Assembly: GCA_023136245.1 (NCBI GenBank)
Contig: JAGLRO010000017.1
Span: 1 to 52,553 of the forward strand
DNA: 52,553 bases
Origin: Candidatus Heimdallarchaeota archaeon
Lineage (GTDB): Archaea; Asgardarchaeota; Heimdallarchaeia; Heimdallarchaeales; Heimdallarchaeaceae
Reading direction: 5' to 3'
Position numbers and translations under genes: made by a program. The notes beneath the pieces were generated by a model. That model made no database searches. It had not been told where the DNA came from and saw nothing but the letters and a program-made list of their open reading frames with translations. Positions 45,594 to 52,553 of the stretch are shown here, one piece after another. Position 1 is the first letter of the stretch. Each line of letters begins with the position of its first letter.

Positions 45594-46664
45594 TTAAATT
45601 ACAATGTAGATCTTTTTTCTGTCCATAAAGAAAGACAATAACCACAATAATACAACACTAAGAATCCCAAAAAACATGACTAATGCAAAATGGGCATTAT
45701 CTGATAGTATTAATATCGTAAGTCCTATTAAAATCGGGTGTGTTATATAAATGAAAAACGCATTTCTTCCTATTGGTTGCAAAAGGCTTCTATCTTTTGT
45801 TAAATGCTTAACATCATAGATATACCATAGTAACCAAAAGAGAACAGCACCCAGTCCAACTGTCAAAAGTATATATGCTGCTGTAACTCTTTCTTTTGAA
45901 ATACCCCCATATAGTGGCCAATCTGTAACTTTCCATATGAAATGTAAAGTTGTTCCTAGAACTGTAAATACTCCTCCAATTCCCAAAATTTGCCACTTGT
46001 TGGTCTTTCTAAAATCATCAATTATGGTTGTACTCAATAGCATCATAATACAAAATCCTATTCCTCCTATTACTCCACCATGCTCATCATACCAACTTAA
46101 ATCTCCTAAAATCACAATTGTTCCTTCAATTTCTATAGGTATTGTTAATATATACTGATAAACTGCTAGCAAACTGAATCCTAGAATAAAACGTATAATT
46201 CGCGGAAATTTCATAAAGAAAAGTGTAAAAATCCCTGCTATTCCAATAGCTTGTAGTACTCCCCAAGAAAATTTGACACCTTCAAGTGTAAAGATATATC
46301 TACTTCCAATTATACCCATCCCAAAGAAAGCAGCATAACGTCTAACAAATCTAATATATGTTTGAAGTTTTCCTTGCTTTTTATAATATCTTTCAAATGA
46401 CATTTTGTATGTAAGACCAATTGCAAACATGAAAAAAGGAGCAACAAGGTCAACATATGTTAAACCAAAGTCTACTGCATGTTTCGACCAGGATGGGACC
46501 CTATTAAAAGGTGCTATTACATTGACAAATATCATTGAAACAATCGCTATTCCTCTGAAAACATCAATACACAGATAGCGAATTTTTCCAGAGGTTCCTT
46601 TAGAGTCTTCATTTCTTAAAACAAACTTTGTCTCATCTTCTATTGTAGAGGAATCTAGTACCAT
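45594..46664 (-). CDS. HGSNAT/YeiB-like membrane acyltransferase (DUF1624/DUF5009 type)
   Basis: A 356-residue protein with about ten membrane helices. After a 27-residue cytoplasmic start comes RYLCIDVFRGIAIVSMIFVNV, the 'R..D..RG' signature of heparan-alpha-glucosaminide acetyltransferase relatives. DLVAPFFMFAIGLTYKMSFERY follows, also characteristic, and the late YITHPILIGL matches. These enzymes carry acetyl groups across or along the membrane to sugars. The acceptor here is unknown; glycan or lipid decoration is likely. The gene lies 44 bp from the cysteine synthase start on the same strand. Confidence 0.83.
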   Translation of the reverse strand: MVLDSSTIEDETKFVLRNEDSKGTSGKIRYLCIDVFRGIAIVSMIFVNVIAPFNRVPSWSKHAVDFGLTYVDLVAPFFMFAIGLTYKMSFERYYKKQGKLQTYIRFVRRYAAFFGMGIIGSRYIFTLEGVKFSWGVLQAIGIAGIFTLFFMKFPRIIRFILGFSLLAVYQYILTIPIEIEGTIVILGDLSWYDEHGGVIGGIGFCIMMLLSTTIIDDFRKTNKWQILGIGGVFTVLGTTLHFIWKVTDWPLYGGISKERVTAAYILLTVGLGAVLFWLLWYIYDVKHLTKDRSLLQPIGRNAFFIYITHPILIGLTILILSDNAHFALVMFFGILSVVLLWLLSFFMDRKKIYIVI

Positions 46665-46818
46665 ATGGTTTATTGTATCTATTAAAGTAAAAACTCTTTC
46701 TGGGCATACATTAGTTTCAAGAATTTTGATTATACCACTCTAAATTACACAATGCTTAACAAAGTTGAAGGATTTTAAAGTTTAAATATAGAATTGACAA
46801 TATTTTCGATGTGAACCT

Positions 46819-47763
46819 ATGAATATAAGAAAGGAAGCTTTGGAAGCTGAACAAAGAATTAAGAAATATATCAGAAAGACACCTCTAGAATATTCACCCT
46901 TCTTAAGTAAACTCGGAGATTGTAATGTATTTCTTAAGCTTGAAAACTTACAGCAAACTGGTTCTTTTAAAATCAGAGGTGCAATGAATAAGATTTTATC
47001 TTCACCTAATCAAAAGAGATTCATTACAGCATCATCAGGGAACCATGGAGTCGCGGTAGCGTACACTCTAGATAAATTTGAATTAGAAGGGTCTATATAT
47101 TTACCTGAAAACACCTCAAAGACAAAAATTGATGCACTGCAGAATTATGATATTGAAACCAGCTTATTTGGGAATGATTGCGTACAAACTGAACTTTTCG
47201 CACAACAAATTGCCAGAGAAAGAGATATTGTGTTTATATCTCCATATAATGATCTGAAGATTATCGGAGGTCAAGCAACAATTGGTATTGAATTAGAGCA
47301 ACAGTTAGATGTAATTGATACCGTATTTGTCCCTATTGGAGGAGGAGGTTTAATTTCAGGTATAGCTGGTTATTTGAAATCTAGTAGAGATCAAGTGAAG
47401 ATTGTAGGATGTCAACCGGAGAATTCTCCAGTGATGTTTGAGTCTGTCAAAGCAGGGAAAATTGTTGAGATGGAATCAAAACCAACTATTTCAGACGGTA
47501 CAGCTGGAGGTATTGAACATAAGTCAATCACTTTTGAAATTTGTAGGAAGTATGTAAACGATTATGTTTTAGTAAATGAAAATCAAATTAAACAATCTAT
47601 AATACTTGCCTTAGATAAGCATTCACTATTAATAGAAGGAGCTGCAGCTTTATCAATTGCATCTTTTGTTAAGGTTAAAGAGAAATTCAAAGGACAAAAC
47701 ATTGTACTTTTATTAACTGGTAACAAAATTAGCAATGAAAAGTTAAAAGAAGTATTGTGTTGA
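46819..47763 (+). CDS. Threonine dehydratase/serine racemase-like PLP enzyme
   Basis: A 314-residue fold-type II PLP protein. The Lys is in QQTGSFKIRGAMN (about residue 52), the loop ASSGNHGVAVAY near 76, and the phosphate loop GGGGLISGIAGY near 175. There is no C-terminal ACT regulatory domain, so it resembles catabolic threonine ammonia-lyase or serine racemase, not the biosynthetic IlvA form. It would give 2-oxobutyrate from threonine, or pyruvate from serine. It is divergent from the HGSNAT-like gene. Confidence 0.9.
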   Translation: MNIRKEALEAEQRIKKYIRKTPLEYSPFLSKLGDCNVFLKLENLQQTGSFKIRGAMNKILSSPNQKRFITASSGNHGVAVAYTLDKFELEGSIYLPENTSKTKIDALQNYDIETSLFGNDCVQTELFAQQIARERDIVFISPYNDLKIIGGQATIGIELEQQLDVIDTVFVPIGGGGLISGIAGYLKSSRDQVKIVGCQPENSPVMFESVKAGKIVEMESKPTISDGTAGGIEHKSITFEICRKYVNDYVLVNENQIKQSIILALDKHSLLIEGAAALSIASFVKVKEKFKGQNIVLLLTGNKISNEKLKEVLC

Positions 47764-47784
47764 TTTTTTTTAGTATTCGTTGTT

Positions 47785-48297
47785 TCAATAAAAACTATCA
47801 TTATATTCTTCAATGAAACCTAAACTCAGTTCATTATTTTCTTTGATTAATTTTACTTCAAAGATTGATTGAGCATTTTCTCTTTTCATTAACTCTCTTA
47901 ACATATAATAATCAGAAGGAATAATTCTTTCCTTATTTTCTTCAATTTCGAATTCAGAAAACCATTTTAGTTCTCCTTCTTCAGTTGGTTTTATTTCGCC
48001 TTCCTTAAACGCTGTTTGACAAAGGAAAATAATGAATTGTTTAACAGTTTCTCCATTTCTCTTATCCATCAACCTTTCATTAAGAATGGCTTTTATTCCT
48101 TCCCATTTAACGTTTAATCCTGTCTCCTCTGCTATCTCTCTAGTAATGGCATCTTGGATAGTCTCATTAAACTGGATTTTTCCCCCAACTAAAGCCCATT
48201 TTTGTTGATAATCTCCACGCTCTCTTTTAATAAGTAACCAATTATTGTTATTTTTAATTCCTGCAACGACGACTGCAAGTATTTTCTTTTGTTCCAT
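47785..48297 (-). CDS. Nudix hydrolase
   Basis: A 170-residue protein. The Nudix box is complete at about residues 38-60: GGKIQFNETIQDAITREIAEETGL fits G-x5-E-x7-R-E-x2-E-E-x-G, with the metal-binding glutamates in REIAEE. The N-terminal strand AVVVAGIKNNNNWLLIKRERG is typical. Substrates are nucleoside diphosphate derivatives; the exact one is not known. It converges with the threonine dehydratase-like gene, with 21 bp between stops. Confidence 0.92.
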   Translation of the reverse strand: MEQKKILAVVVAGIKNNNNWLLIKRERGDYQQKWALVGGKIQFNETIQDAITREIAEETGLNVKWEGIKAILNERLMDKRNGETVKQFIIFLCQTAFKEGEIKPTEEGELKWFSEFEIEENKERIIPSDYYMLRELMKRENAQSIFEVKLIKENNELSLGFIEEYNDSFY

Positions 48298-48400
48298 ATT
48301 CTAGGTAAGTTTTATGTGTTCTATAACTTTTTCTTTGAAATTAGTATTCAAGGTCATAAAATTCTTAAATATTCAAAAAGATGCTCATTAGCGAACCCCA

Positions 48401-48991
48401 ATGACTAACTTTATTCAGAATTCTATCCGCTCAATTCGTAGAAAACTAGGTTACCCAGAGGTTTCTATATTGATTATGGGAAATAACAACCCTGCAACTA
48501 GAAATCGTGTTCTCCTTCTAAGATCGAATACTTCTTTGCAAGAATTCATTATGGATGATTTACTCATTGATTTACCTTTCTCTGCCAAATTCAAGTTTAA
48601 ACCAAAGCAGTTTGTTCCATTCGAGGGTATCCTCTATCTTATTGATGCAACTGAAGAAGAAATGATTAAACATGAACGTAATTATTTCTGGGAAAAGATA
48701 GTTTGGGATACTGAAACAAAAAACCTTCCAATTGCAGTATGTGCTTACAATTCTAATCTTCAAGGAGCATTAACTAGAGGTGAATTAATAGAATATCTAT
48801 CATTGATTCGCCTTACTGATAGACTTTGGAAATTATTTGAGACTCCGGATGTTAATAATCTGATAGATGCTATGCGATGGATAAAACGAATAGTTCATAT
48901 GGGATATGTCAAGTCTTGGGAAGAAAAAGAAAAACTATTGGAAAAAGTAATAACAAAACAAGTTCAAATTGTTTCAGAAACTACAACATAA
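48401..48991 (+). CDS. Degenerate Arf-family GTPase (pseudo-GTPase)
   Basis: A 196-residue protein whose middle and end match the Arf/Arl fold: GILYLIDATEEE (76-87, strand 4), FWEKIV, NLPIAVCAYNSNLQGAL (108-124) and RGELIEYLSL (126-135), then LWKLFETPDVNNLIDAMRWI (142-161). That is the Arf pattern around G4, the helix after it, and G5 plus the final helix. The nucleotide-binding parts are lost. The P-loop GxxxxGK[ST] is MGNNNPATRN (26-35), no WDxGG (G3) is present, and the NKxD Lys and Asp are replaced (AYNSNL). GTP binding is therefore unlikely. It begins a same-strand run with AAA+, VWA and a further gene; the spacer to the AAA+ gene is 23 nt with a ribosome site aaagaggt. Confidence 0.7.
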   Translation: MTNFIQNSIRSIRRKLGYPEVSILIMGNNNPATRNRVLLLRSNTSLQEFIMDDLLIDLPFSAKFKFKPKQFVPFEGILYLIDATEEEMIKHERNYFWEKIVWDTETKNLPIAVCAYNSNLQGALTRGELIEYLSLIRLTDRLWKLFETPDVNNLIDAMRWIKRIVHMGYVKSWEEKEKLLEKVITKQVQIVSETTT

Positions 48992-49014
48992 ATAAAAAAT
49001 AAAGAGGTCAAACC

Positions 49015-50565
49015 ATGACACTCACAATTCAAAAATTAATGAAAGATGGATACTCAGGATTTTCTGTGCGTTCCATACTAATGAATCAAGATTTTCGTGC
49101 AAGAGTTTTAAACGATGTAAGTGTAAGAGGAAATCAAACAGGCAAAAATCTAGTGATGGACAAATTAGCTGTTGGAGGAAAAGTACTTCTGACAGGTCCA
49201 ACTGGAGAAGCTAAAACTCTGTTTGCTAGAATGCTTTTAGATCATATTGTAAGAGAGATTAACAATTCCAAGTATCATATTGAAGGATGCCCTTTTCTTG
49301 AAGACGCAGGTTACATGGTCGATGTTGTCAATCAATTTTCAGCAAATCCTTTTGCTGGGATTAGAGTTATGCAATCTCTTTGCCCCTACTGTAGACAAAA
49401 CATTGAGAATATACTATCCGAAGAAGGTAATCAAGTTCAACTTGACAACACAAACAGTGTCTTAGCTATTCCTCCAAAAGAGATTGTTAATCGCTTAGGA
49501 AAGCTTGGTGCTCAAAAAACCATTGTTAGAAGATCTCAATTAGATCCAAGAACAGATCCTGAAAGCCTTTCAATGTTACTAGCTGGAGTTGAAAATTTAG
49601 AAGAATTATTTGGTAAAGATACTTCTACAACATATGCAGCAACCTCACATAAAGTTGGGGTTCTTTCTCAAGGTTTTATCGTAGTTAACGAAATTCAAAG
49701 ACTACCATTAACACTACTTGAGTCCTTGATGGGTTTTCTTGAGGAACCAATGGTTATCAAATACAATATTCAAGGAGAACCAGTCTACATTGATGGAGCA
49801 GTTCTTTTCACTTCAAATGCTCCACTAACTGTGTTTGGGGAAGAAAGTCAACCAATCATCAATCGTATTCCAGAAGTTCTTTGGCCAGCTCGTTCAGTTG
49901 AGAGCAGGGAACAAATTATTAGAGATATGTTTCAAGAACAAATAGTTCTTTCCAGAAAGAAAATAACCGCAAATCCTTCAATGATCCAATTACATGAACT
50001 AGAAAAAGAGACAACTGATTTTGTAAGTCGTCTAGCTGTTGATTTTCTTGCTTTCCTAGGTAATAACTCACTTCCAGAATCCATGAAAACAAGAGGATTA
50101 AGGTCTGAAAGTCGCGTAGAAAGAAGTGACTTCTATGCAGGTCTTGATGAGATTCATGATCCACAAAGGAATCCCCACATAGATCTTCGAACCATGAATA
50201 ACATAATTGGAGAAACAGTTCTTCTTCAAACTAGAGAATCAGAAGTAGAAAGTATAAATGTAGTAACATTAGAAAAAATTAGAAAAACTATTGGTGCTTT
50301 TGATGTTCCTGTTTCAATGCTTAATGATGCTCTTCAACAAATTAAGATTCTCCTACGAACCTCAATAAAAGATTCAGAAGTTTCCATAAGCGTTCAAGAC
50401 ATTTCTGAAGATATTTCAAAAATGAAAGCATTAAGTGATGAAGAACTTATTCAATTAATAACTAGATTTGAAGGATTAGACAAATTCAAAGAGAATCTTC
50501 GAGCAAAAATTATTGATAAACTCAAATTATCTTATGAGCAATTATTAAAGATAGATTATATCTAG
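49015..50565 (+). CDS. MoxR/chelatase-like AAA+ ATPase with altered Walker B
   Basis: A 516-residue AAA+ protein. Walker A is GPTGEAKT (61-68), the MoxR-type GxxGxAKT. The Walker B region is GFIVVNEIQ (220-228): the usual Asp is Asn225, while Glu226 remains. Sensor 1 is LFTSNAP (N268), and Arg284 in INRIPEVLW is a candidate arginine finger. Cysteines C92, C123 and C126 (CPYC) suggest a zinc site, seen in some magnesium-chelatase relatives. The C-terminal part is long and helical. It pairs with the VWA gene 33 nt downstream, as MoxR/RavA, NorQ and BchI pair with VWA partners that recruit metals or fold targets. The Asn change could mean slow or no ATP hydrolysis. Confidence 0.85.
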   Translation: MTLTIQKLMKDGYSGFSVRSILMNQDFRARVLNDVSVRGNQTGKNLVMDKLAVGGKVLLTGPTGEAKTLFARMLLDHIVREINNSKYHIEGCPFLEDAGYMVDVVNQFSANPFAGIRVMQSLCPYCRQNIENILSEEGNQVQLDNTNSVLAIPPKEIVNRLGKLGAQKTIVRRSQLDPRTDPESLSMLLAGVENLEELFGKDTSTTYAATSHKVGVLSQGFIVVNEIQRLPLTLLESLMGFLEEPMVIKYNIQGEPVYIDGAVLFTSNAPLTVFGEESQPIINRIPEVLWPARSVESREQIIRDMFQEQIVLSRKKITANPSMIQLHELEKETTDFVSRLAVDFLAFLGNNSLPESMKTRGLRSESRVERSDFYAGLDEIHDPQRNPHIDLRTMNNIIGETVLLQTRESEVESINVVTLEKIRKTIGAFDVPVSMLNDALQQIKILLRTSIKDSEVSISVQDISEDISKMKALSDEELIQLITRFEGLDKFKENLRAKIIDKLKLSYEQLLKIDYI

Positions 50566-50598
50566 AAAGACACCTAAAAGCCCTAAGGAGTTGAAACA

Positions 50599-51984
50599 AT
50601 GCCCCATAGAATATTCTTCATAACGGAAACAGAATTCACTGATCCATTACAACATTATGGTGATGTTGAATTTATACTAGACTTTGAGGATGCAGCACAA
50701 GTATTGAGGTTGTGGAGAAATCCCCATCTAGGACGAAGTTCCCGTGAAGGGGCAGTCATTTCTCTTGCATCAAAAAATGCTGTTGCAATTGATAACATAC
50801 TCCAAAAGATAATGAATACTTTTCTTACAGCTGAGGAAGAAGAACGTCTATTAAATGAGCTAAAACTCCTCCGTTTTATTGGCGATCATATTTTACCAGA
50901 TGTATTAGAAAGAGTTAATCGTAATGAACTCCAAACAGTTGAAGATATTCTGCAATATATTCAAGAGCTTTTACGTGAGTTGAAATATGAAGGAACAATT
51001 GATATACAACAATTAGCTGAAAAACTAAATCAACTGAAAGATATCGTGGATATTGAAATTACGGATGCTTTTGGGAGAAAGAAAAGAATCTCTCGTGAAA
51101 ATGTAATGGATTTACTTGGTAGGATACTTGGTAGATACTTAATGAAACAGATTTCAGTAGCTCCAATAGATGAGGTTCAAAAAAGATTTAGTGGATCAAT
51201 TCGTCTTAAGGAAACTTACAAAAGTGCTGTTCTTAGGTCACAAATGATTCCACCTACCTCTGTAAAACAAGAAGATATTGTTAGAGTAAAGAAAGATCGT
51301 CGATCTTTGGTTTACCAAATAGTCGATATGAGTCAATCTATGAGTAAAACTGTTTTTGAAGGAAAAATGTCCAGACTAGACGGGGCATTGTTAACAAGCT
51401 TAAGTCTATACTATTATTTCAAAATGCTAAACAGAAGAAAAAGAAAACGGTATGATATGTTTAAACTCGCAGTTGTTCCTATTAGAAAAGGACCAACCGT
51501 AATCGATGATGATAAGAAGATGGAACATCTACTTCTTACAGCTGATGCTAAAGGTAAGACTTACATGGTTCAAAGTGTTCTTAAAGCAATAGAACATGCA
51601 AGAAAGCAACATCTAGATAAGAACATAGATGTGCAGTTAACAATAGTTACAGATGGTATGCCAAATGTACCTATTCGTCCGTTTGGTTTTAAAACAAGTA
51701 AGGGATTAAAAAGATACTTTGATGAGATAGAAACAAAGACTAAACCAGATACTATTGAATGTTTAATTCAATTAAATGGAATTTTTAGTAGCTTAAAGAA
51801 TGATCGATCAAGAAACTGGAACATATCTTATTTCTTGATGGGTACAGAAGCTTTACGAAAGAAGGAATTGTATAGTCATACTCAGAGAATGTTGAAAGGC
51901 ATCACAAAACCTATTCTCATTGATCCTGCTCAAATAAACAAATTGGGAGAACAGATACTCCGAGAGAGCATTCTATACGGGTGA
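50599..51984 (+). CDS. VWA-domain protein, partner of the AAA+ ATPase
   Basis: A 461-residue protein. Residues 1-230 are mostly helical and unrecognised. Residues 232-461 form a VWA domain. The MIDAS is complete: DMSQS (D243-S247), Thr321 in AKGKT and Asp352 in VTDGMPN. MIDAS domains hold a divalent metal that contacts a target's acidic residue. In BchD, NorD, ViaA and CoxE the VWA protein delivers targets to the partner AAA+ ring, so the same is inferred here. A strong ribosome site aaggag precedes the ATG by 9 nt, and the following gene starts 6 nt after the stop. Confidence 0.88.
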   Translation: MPHRIFFITETEFTDPLQHYGDVEFILDFEDAAQVLRLWRNPHLGRSSREGAVISLASKNAVAIDNILQKIMNTFLTAEEEERLLNELKLLRFIGDHILPDVLERVNRNELQTVEDILQYIQELLRELKYEGTIDIQQLAEKLNQLKDIVDIEITDAFGRKKRISRENVMDLLGRILGRYLMKQISVAPIDEVQKRFSGSIRLKETYKSAVLRSQMIPPTSVKQEDIVRVKKDRRSLVYQIVDMSQSMSKTVFEGKMSRLDGALLTSLSLYYYFKMLNRRKRKRYDMFKLAVVPIRKGPTVIDDDKKMEHLLLTADAKGKTYMVQSVLKAIEHARKQHLDKNIDVQLTIVTDGMPNVPIRPFGFKTSKGLKRYFDEIETKTKPDTIECLIQLNGIFSSLKNDRSRNWNISYFLMGTEALRKKELYSHTQRMLKGITKPILIDPAQINKLGEQILRESILYG

Positions 51985-51990
51985 TAAAAA

Positions 51991-52553
51991 ATGTTAAAAG
52001 CTGAACTAACAGAAGTGATAGGGGTTTATCACAAAGCTCGTGATGATATCAAGACTCTTGTAGGTTCAACCCCGGAAAATTACAGAATACTGATTTTTGT
52101 TAATCCTGAAATGCATGTTTCTGTTAATCGTGTTGTTGAAATGACTGGTACTCCTCAAGCCATTCTTACTTCTGAGCAAATTACAAATCTGAAATCGGCT
52201 CGAATCAGTGATTTCCTCCCTACAGGAAAAGAAACTGTTTATAATTCACTTCCAACTTTAATCTATCTTTCTGTACCTTCCTATGAGCTTTCTAAAGAAC
52301 AAGAATTTACATTAAGAGTCATGCTCGTTCATGCATTAGCTCATGCACTAATGAATGAAAAAACTGAATCTAATTCAGCAAGAACACTATCCCAATTGTA
52401 TCAATTGGATGTTATATTAAAGGAATTGATGACTAACAATGTTTTCAAATTAAACAGAACATCAAATAATCAGCATGTTTGGGCATGGCAGTATTTTCAA
52501 GATTTAATTGGTATTATACGGTTATTCTCTGAATCAGGTGTAGAAGATTTTTA
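51991..52553 (+). CDS. Fourth gene of the AAA+/VWA cluster, partial, unknown
   Basis: An ATG 6 nt after the VWA stop opens a frame that runs through the window end (187 codons visible). The visible part begins MLKAELTEVIGVYHKARDD and includes a strand IFVNPEMHVSVNRVVEM. A helix with VMLVHALAHALMNE carries an H-x3-H pair, which could hold a metal but is not a classical HExxH. I do not recognise a family. Tight spacing implies co-transcription and a role with the AAA+ and VWA proteins. Confidence 0.72.
   Translation, partial: MLKAELTEVIGVYHKARDDIKTLVGSTPENYRILIFVNPEMHVSVNRVVEMTGTPQAILTSEQITNLKSARISDFLPTGKETVYNSLPTLIYLSVPSYELSKEQEFTLRVMLVHALAHALMNEKTESNSARTLSQLYQLDVILKELMTNNVFKLNRTSNNQHVWAWQYFQDLIGIIRLFSESGVEDF

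Follow-up and report, generated by a model that had tools for sequence, protein, structure and literature searches.

Background

The PrkA-VWA-SpoVR system is widespread in bacteria; its mechanism is unknown, and the kinase function of PrkA is disputed. Members include YeaG/YeaH/YcgB of E. coli, PrkA of Bacillus, and the corresponding proteins of R. etli and of Thermus phages. In R. etli, RT-PCR placed prkA and the VWA and SpoVR genes in a three-gene operon, of which the genes 3' of prkA are uncharacterised (PMC3188799). In E. coli, yeaG and yeaH mutants have a common nitrogen-starvation phenotype, and YeaG variants altered in the AAA+ or the kinase part gave no complementation (PMC4664914). 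The protease and kinase activities of B. anthracis PrkA were negligible in vitro (PMC13001217). The bacterial records that we consulted contain operons in the order PrkA, DUF444, SpoVR, while Thermus phages carry the three genes together in a different order; grouped PrkA, DUF444 and SpoVR genes were seen in Thermus phages and in huge uncultured phages (L157, L158, L159, L183 and L184). A second family of systems, the MoxR-type pairs RavA/ViaA, NorQ/NorD and BchI/BchD, likewise combines an AAA+ ATPase with a MIDAS-bearing VWA protein.

Here, we analyzed a stretch of 52,553 nucleotides (the window) from an archaeon of the class Heimdallarchaeia, and compared the genes at its end with these systems. 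The gene set appears to be a divergent relative of PrkA-VWA-SpoVR to which a HEAT-repeat protein and an Arf-family protein devoid of a P-loop, psArf, have been added.

Results and discussion

Gene content and order of the operon

The window ends with four open reading frames on the + strand, separated by gaps of 23, 33 and 6 nt, and the coordinates given in a preliminary description of the locus proved correct. The first gene (48401..48991) encodes psArf (196 aa, matched by Pfam Arf), the second (49015..50565) an AAA+ ATPase of 516 aa whose core aligns with PrkA in hhalign, and the third (50599..51984) a VWA-domain protein of 461 aa recognized by its MIDAS residues and by Pfam VWA_2. The fourth (51991..52553), for a putatively SpoVR-like protein that we call P4, is cut by the contig end, so that the first 187 of ~524 aa are present. 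Another contig of the same genome, C7, has a C-terminal portion of P4 at its start (profile positions 403-510), followed by the gene for P5, a HEAT-repeat protein of 257 aa (L156:333-1103; HEAT_2, 4.2e-18); from this gene content, we infer that the contig directly continues the window. Since 30 loci have a member of this HEAT protein family after P4, the predicted operon is counted as five genes: psArf, AAA+, VWA, P4 and P5. The four-gene cluster initially proposed is thus a conserved set, but its extent has to be enlarged.

A promoter-like, TATA-like element, CATAAAATTCTTAAATATTC (48355..48374, + strand), lies 5' of the psArf gene and is conserved in family f1; by eye and without statistics, the motif CATAA[AC]ATT[CT]TTAAA is recognizable ~30-45 nt before the psArf ATG in most of 12 loci of this family. 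Further upstream, positions 45594-48297 of the window carry genes for an HGSNAT-like acyltransferase (- strand), a PALP-family PLP enzyme (+ strand) and a NUDIX hydrolase (- strand); of these three, the genes for the NUDIX and PLP enzymes are conserved neighbours of the operon within the genus.

Conservation of gene order, proposed for checking in the preliminary description, is extensive: AAA+, VWA and P4 follow one another wherever contigs reach, in five families, the complete order psArf-AAA-VWA-P4-P5 is found across families f1, f3 and f6, and AAA-VWA-P4-P5 is also found in f2 and f4. In 29 of 36 loci, the psArf gene is the immediate 5' neighbour of the AAA gene, and it is under purifying selection (dN/dS 0.04-0.21), which marks it as a working gene. 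This arrangement is not the product of chance.

Distribution in Asgard genomes

Full or partial copies of the AAA gene were retrieved by its profile from 42 of 228 Asgard genomes, a number that falls to 41 once a weak match (4e-4) to another protein, in G009, is removed. All 41 genomes belong to Heimdallarchaeia, the class of the window. A scan of named genomes by short peptide patterns, which remote relatives elsewhere may escape, gave 40 loci; each of these has one of the labels Heimdallarchaeota, Heimdallarchaeum, Kariarchaeota, Asgard group archaeon and archaeon.

AAA+/VWA systems occur in defence islands, and two proteins of the operon have weak PADLOC matches (P5 HEAT, 8.7e-7; AAA+ to TRIP13, 1.4e-4), as might be expected of a conflict or defence module. 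What is matched, however, is generic repeats or the P-loop region; the operon is near-universal in its genus and keeps the same neighbours there, which is not island-like, and no viral contig contained the operon family. A defence role is therefore very improbable, and we rejected a defence-system identity on the ground that the PADLOC matches are generic only.

Orthologues of psArf were found in 37 of the 41 genomes that have the AAA at E < 1e-28, and weakly in one more. According to the preliminary description, the pseudo-GTPase gene should stand beside the AAA+/VWA pair in relatives. This holds for the 29 adjacent loci; in 7 of the 36 the two genes are non-adjacent, and in most of these psArf is encoded elsewhere. 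It is on the opposite strand ~2 kb off in G026, strongly diverged and ~9 kb away in G027, and on contigs other than that of AAA in G023, G024 and G030; two f4 genomes, G025 and G029, yielded no psArf gene (in G006 the contig starts within the AAA gene, and adjacency is not judgeable). Detachment from the operon concerns families f2 and f4 and genus g5. From the non-adjacent loci and the two f4 genomes, psArf may be dispensable in some lineages. In families f5 and f7 of Heimdallarchaeia neither AAA nor psArf orthologues were found; in f5, those of the best psArf matches that were read proved to be intact Arfs carrying GLD[HQ]AGKT.

Detached or missing psArf genes are what one would expect if psArf were a passenger that is co-transcribed for regulation but has its function elsewhere, such as that of a decoy for Arf regulators. 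We consider this unlikely, because psArf and AAA co-occur at the level of the class, detached psArf genes are still kept in most genomes, and psArf is absent from families f5 and f7, which are without AAA; in addition, the conserved side of psArf (see below) differs, judging from the alignment, from the switch side bound by Arf regulators.

The ATPase is closest to PrkA by profile comparison

MoxR proteins have DE in their Walker B motif. The second protein of the operon had been described as a MoxR-type P-loop ATPase, and its Walker A motif is indeed present (GPTGEAKT, 49195..49218, + strand; near-invariant in 18 orthologues, with K67 invariant), but its Walker B variant reads VVNE, with no Asp (49681..49692, + strand; N225-E226 invariant in the same 18), and the MoxR model PF07726 does not match it. 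Invariance also extends to N268, a sensor-1 candidate, and to the Arg candidates R284 and R293. A Walker B without Asp is common to PrkA (EFVE/EFIE/EFQE) and the Asgard ATPase. Some PrkA proteins also have the same Cys insert: in the Asgard protein, this is CPFLED...LCPYC (C92, C123 and C126; 49288..49392, + strand), which follows the Walker A helix, at the same place in the alignment as CPxHE..CPxC of PrkA. E. coli YeaG-type PrkA is without these cysteines, and the insert is thus not universal in PrkA; in the Asgard family it is present in all genera but one, g5. In that genus (L046, L054 and L055) the three cysteines are lost together (C to S/A), and psArf is also outside the operon.

PrkA was by far the best profile match of the ATPase in hhalign (96.1%, E 2.8e-9), over 228 columns that span the whole AAA core; its score was 79.5, against 34.1 at most for 150 column shuffles, and subsets of eight PrkA sequences gave scores of 71-83. 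Lower scores were obtained with AAA_5 (49.0), sigma-54 activators (46.7, from three sequences only) and MoxR (46.1), whose alignments are shorter (41-110 columns). Such comparisons needed multi-sequence alignments, hhalign against single E. coli YeaG, YeaH and YcgB sequences being uninformative. In a tblastn search of all plasmids with the AAA+ protein, PrkA genes were among the best matches, at non-significant values (Priestia, E 0.02; Paenibacillus, 0.08). We therefore place the ATPase nearest to PrkA and not among MoxR-type proteins, as a best profile match. Pfam PrkA (PF08298) matches no member of the family, nor the window locus. The C-terminal kinase-like domain of PrkA is likewise not recognizable in the Asgard ATPase at Pfam cut-offs, and the alignment ends at about residue 309 of 516. 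The best Pfam matches are Sigma54_activat and AAA_5; a sigma-54 activator identity was rejected, as the Walker B half alone matches (110 columns, E 3.7e-5).

Could the operon nevertheless be a MoxR/chelatase-type AAA+-VWA pair resembling RavA/ViaA, NorQ/NorD or BchI/BchD, devoted to metal insertion or enzyme remodelling, with psArf as an extra adaptor? A VWA protein with a full MIDAS stands beside the AAA+ protein, the P-loop region aligns with MoxR (41 columns, E 2.8e-5), and the Walker B region is like that of sigma-54/AAA_5 proteins. Yet PF07726 finds three other proteins in the same genome (G000) and not this one, PrkA scores far higher and across the whole core, Walker B has NE instead of DE, and P4, the third partner, resembles SpoVR; the operon further departs from the MoxR systems in its HEAT and Arf-fold proteins. 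The MoxR class was accordingly rejected for the ATPase itself, and we regard the wider proposal as quite unlikely, somewhat more so than psArf being a passenger.

True PrkA genes were seen in a single Asgard genome, G197, which has two (L097 and L098, on contigs C578 and C713), 62-69% identical to E. coli YeaG; they are on short contigs together with DUF444, one of them also with SpoVR, and are likely to represent contamination or recent transfer.

Partners of the ATPase

The complete MIDAS announced for the third protein was confirmed, with D243-S245-S247, T321 and D352 invariant in 16 orthologues. Pfam VWA_2 is found in 12 of 16 members, and Pfam DUF444 in no member of the family. The protein occupies the position of DUF444 (YeaH/YhbH) in the bacterial operon, but showed no particular closeness to that family: its profile scores are 41.2 with DUF444, 41.1 with CoxE and 47.6 with other VWA proteins.

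P4, formerly listed as an unknown partner, may be SpoVR-like, a likeness that is weak in sequence and draws in part on one structure match named by its length. Compared by hhalign with a divergent SpoVR set, P4 gave E 3.5e-4 over 82 columns and a score of 40.4, which none of 150 shuffles reached (maximum 24.2); a first, less diverse SpoVR set gave a weaker match (E 0.03). Three motifs are collinear in SpoVR and P4, namely NSxPxxxYL and NSLPTLIYL, HAxxGH and HAFAHA, and EGxA and EGFA. Full-length P4 orthologues exist (for example, L123:12964-14535), and the AF2 model of P4 (pLDDT 79.7, pTM 0.81) has one significant match in BFVD, A0A3Q8HYQ4 (617 aa, E 2.9e-4), which carries no name in the output. 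The putative stage V sporulation protein R of Thermus phage phiLo has 617 aa as well, and by this equal length A0A3Q8HYQ4 is presumably that protein. P4 matched neither Pfam SpoVR (PF04293) nor any other Pfam family, had no PDB match by sequence or fold, and had no relatives in phages by sequence.

A different AAA+/VWA pair occurs in genus g32 of the Asgard family f8 (L180:4848-8345 and L181). Its AAA+ protein (581 aa, DEVNR Walker B) adjoins a protein that combines HEIGH with a VWA domain, and the C-terminal region of the AAA+ protein matches positions 281-358 of the P4 profile (YWxDxW; genome-level E about 4e-4). As for P5, it has weak Adaptin_N similarity.

Judged by sequence, then, the nearest known system is PrkA-VWA-SpoVR, and not BchI/BchD, RavA/ViaA or NorQ/NorD: the order of AAA+, VWA and P4 is that of the bacterial PrkA, DUF444 and SpoVR genes. 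On the Asgard side, however, similarity stays below Pfam cut-offs, no kinase-like domain is recognizable in the ATPase, the VWA protein is not specifically DUF444-like, and two proteins are added. The curated family matches and the kinase-like domain were both looked for and not found, and we therefore do not assign the operon to the PrkA, DUF444 or SpoVR families. The preliminary description knew of no account of the combination, and we found no paper on the Asgard gene set in the open-licence literature; as far as could be found, the placing of an Arf fold next to an ATP-driven machine is an undescribed use of that fold.

An Arf-family protein without a P-loop

Pfam Arf (PF00025) matches residues 73-162 of psArf above its cut-off (8.5e-6), and 14 of 19 family members at E up to 10. 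When a profile of 19 orthologues was compared with PDB, the best match was ARF1 (3lrp, 8.7e-10), and the listed matches were all Arf/Arl. Usable parts of the AF2 model are confined to residues ~77-163, with block pLDDT of about 65-84; the alternation of strands and helices there is that of a G domain's second half. Residues 6-76 have pLDDT < 50. With this model, Foldseek returned HodArfR1 first (8oul, E 2.6e-6), and its top 50 were all Arf/Arl chains or Arf fusions. The expected Arf-like structure was thus recovered for the C-terminal half, whose Arf ancestry is firm on these sequence and model comparisons, but not for the N-terminal half, which has no confident model.

The nearest solved structures are those of the Asgard ArfR1 GTPases (HodArfR1, 8ouk/8oul; GerdArfR1, 8oum/8oun), with which psArf has the C-terminal half of the G domain in common. 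Unlike them, psArf has no P-loop: the absence of nucleotide-binding motifs from an Arf-like body, as first reported, extends to all 29 orthologues examined, none of which has GxxxxGK[ST] (G1). NKxD was not found at the aligned G4 site, which reads YNSN, YNAE, IPDT and similar; the looser pattern [NST]KxD has eight matches in psArf sequences when counted regardless of position. The loss of the P-loop, in a gene under purifying selection, suggests that psArf is unable to bind GTP in the usual manner. Its Arf ancestry, and a short GK[TS] retained in two sequences, might point to a nucleotide-binding switch with unusual motifs, but the lack of both motifs, together with a switch region that is not conserved among orthologues, makes this highly unlikely.

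The most conserved stretch of psArf lies elsewhere. It is LSLIRLTDR (aa 133-141; 48797..48823, + strand), in which L135, R137, D140 and R141 do not vary in alignments of 19 and of 24 orthologues, and which would be on the helix-4/strand-6 side of the Arf fold, away from the switches. For the window sequence, a hydrophobic moment of 0.63, which 3% of shuffles reach, suggests an amphipathic helix at the N terminus; the same is suggested in f3, but not in f6.

A proposed machine and its significance

The reading that we favor, and hold to be probable, is that the operon encodes a divergent, kinase-less PrkA/VWA/SpoVR-like protein-remodelling machine in which the dead Arf is a fixed adaptor, the type of machine being deduced from homology. 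The AAA+ protein would form a ring and hydrolyse ATP, while the VWA protein, by means of its MIDAS metal, and P4 would select or hand over the client. psArf would serve as a nucleotide-independent adaptor that docks by its helix-4/strand-6 side (LSLIRLTDR), possibly on P5, and in some families its amphipathic helix could bring the machine to a membrane. By analogy with PrkA/YeaG, the physiological setting may be starvation or stress.

Arf1 grips the HEAT subunits of coat adaptors. A bolder proposal, which we think doubtful, is that the AAA+ machine includes the dead Arf as a permanent subunit, which would grip the HEAT protein in much that way and carry the machine to a membrane without a GTP cycle; a link of the machine to membranes or trafficking, already evoked in the preliminary description, is a guess.

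With five small genes, the operon can be tested by co-expression. A kinase-less Asgard relative would separate the function of the AAA+ core from the disputed kinase function of PrkA. Heimdallarchaeia are the archaeal class nearest to eukaryotes, and what Arf proteins were first used for in archaea akin to the eukaryote ancestor is an open question. In these archaea, psArf would clearly exemplify an Arf fold at work without nucleotide.
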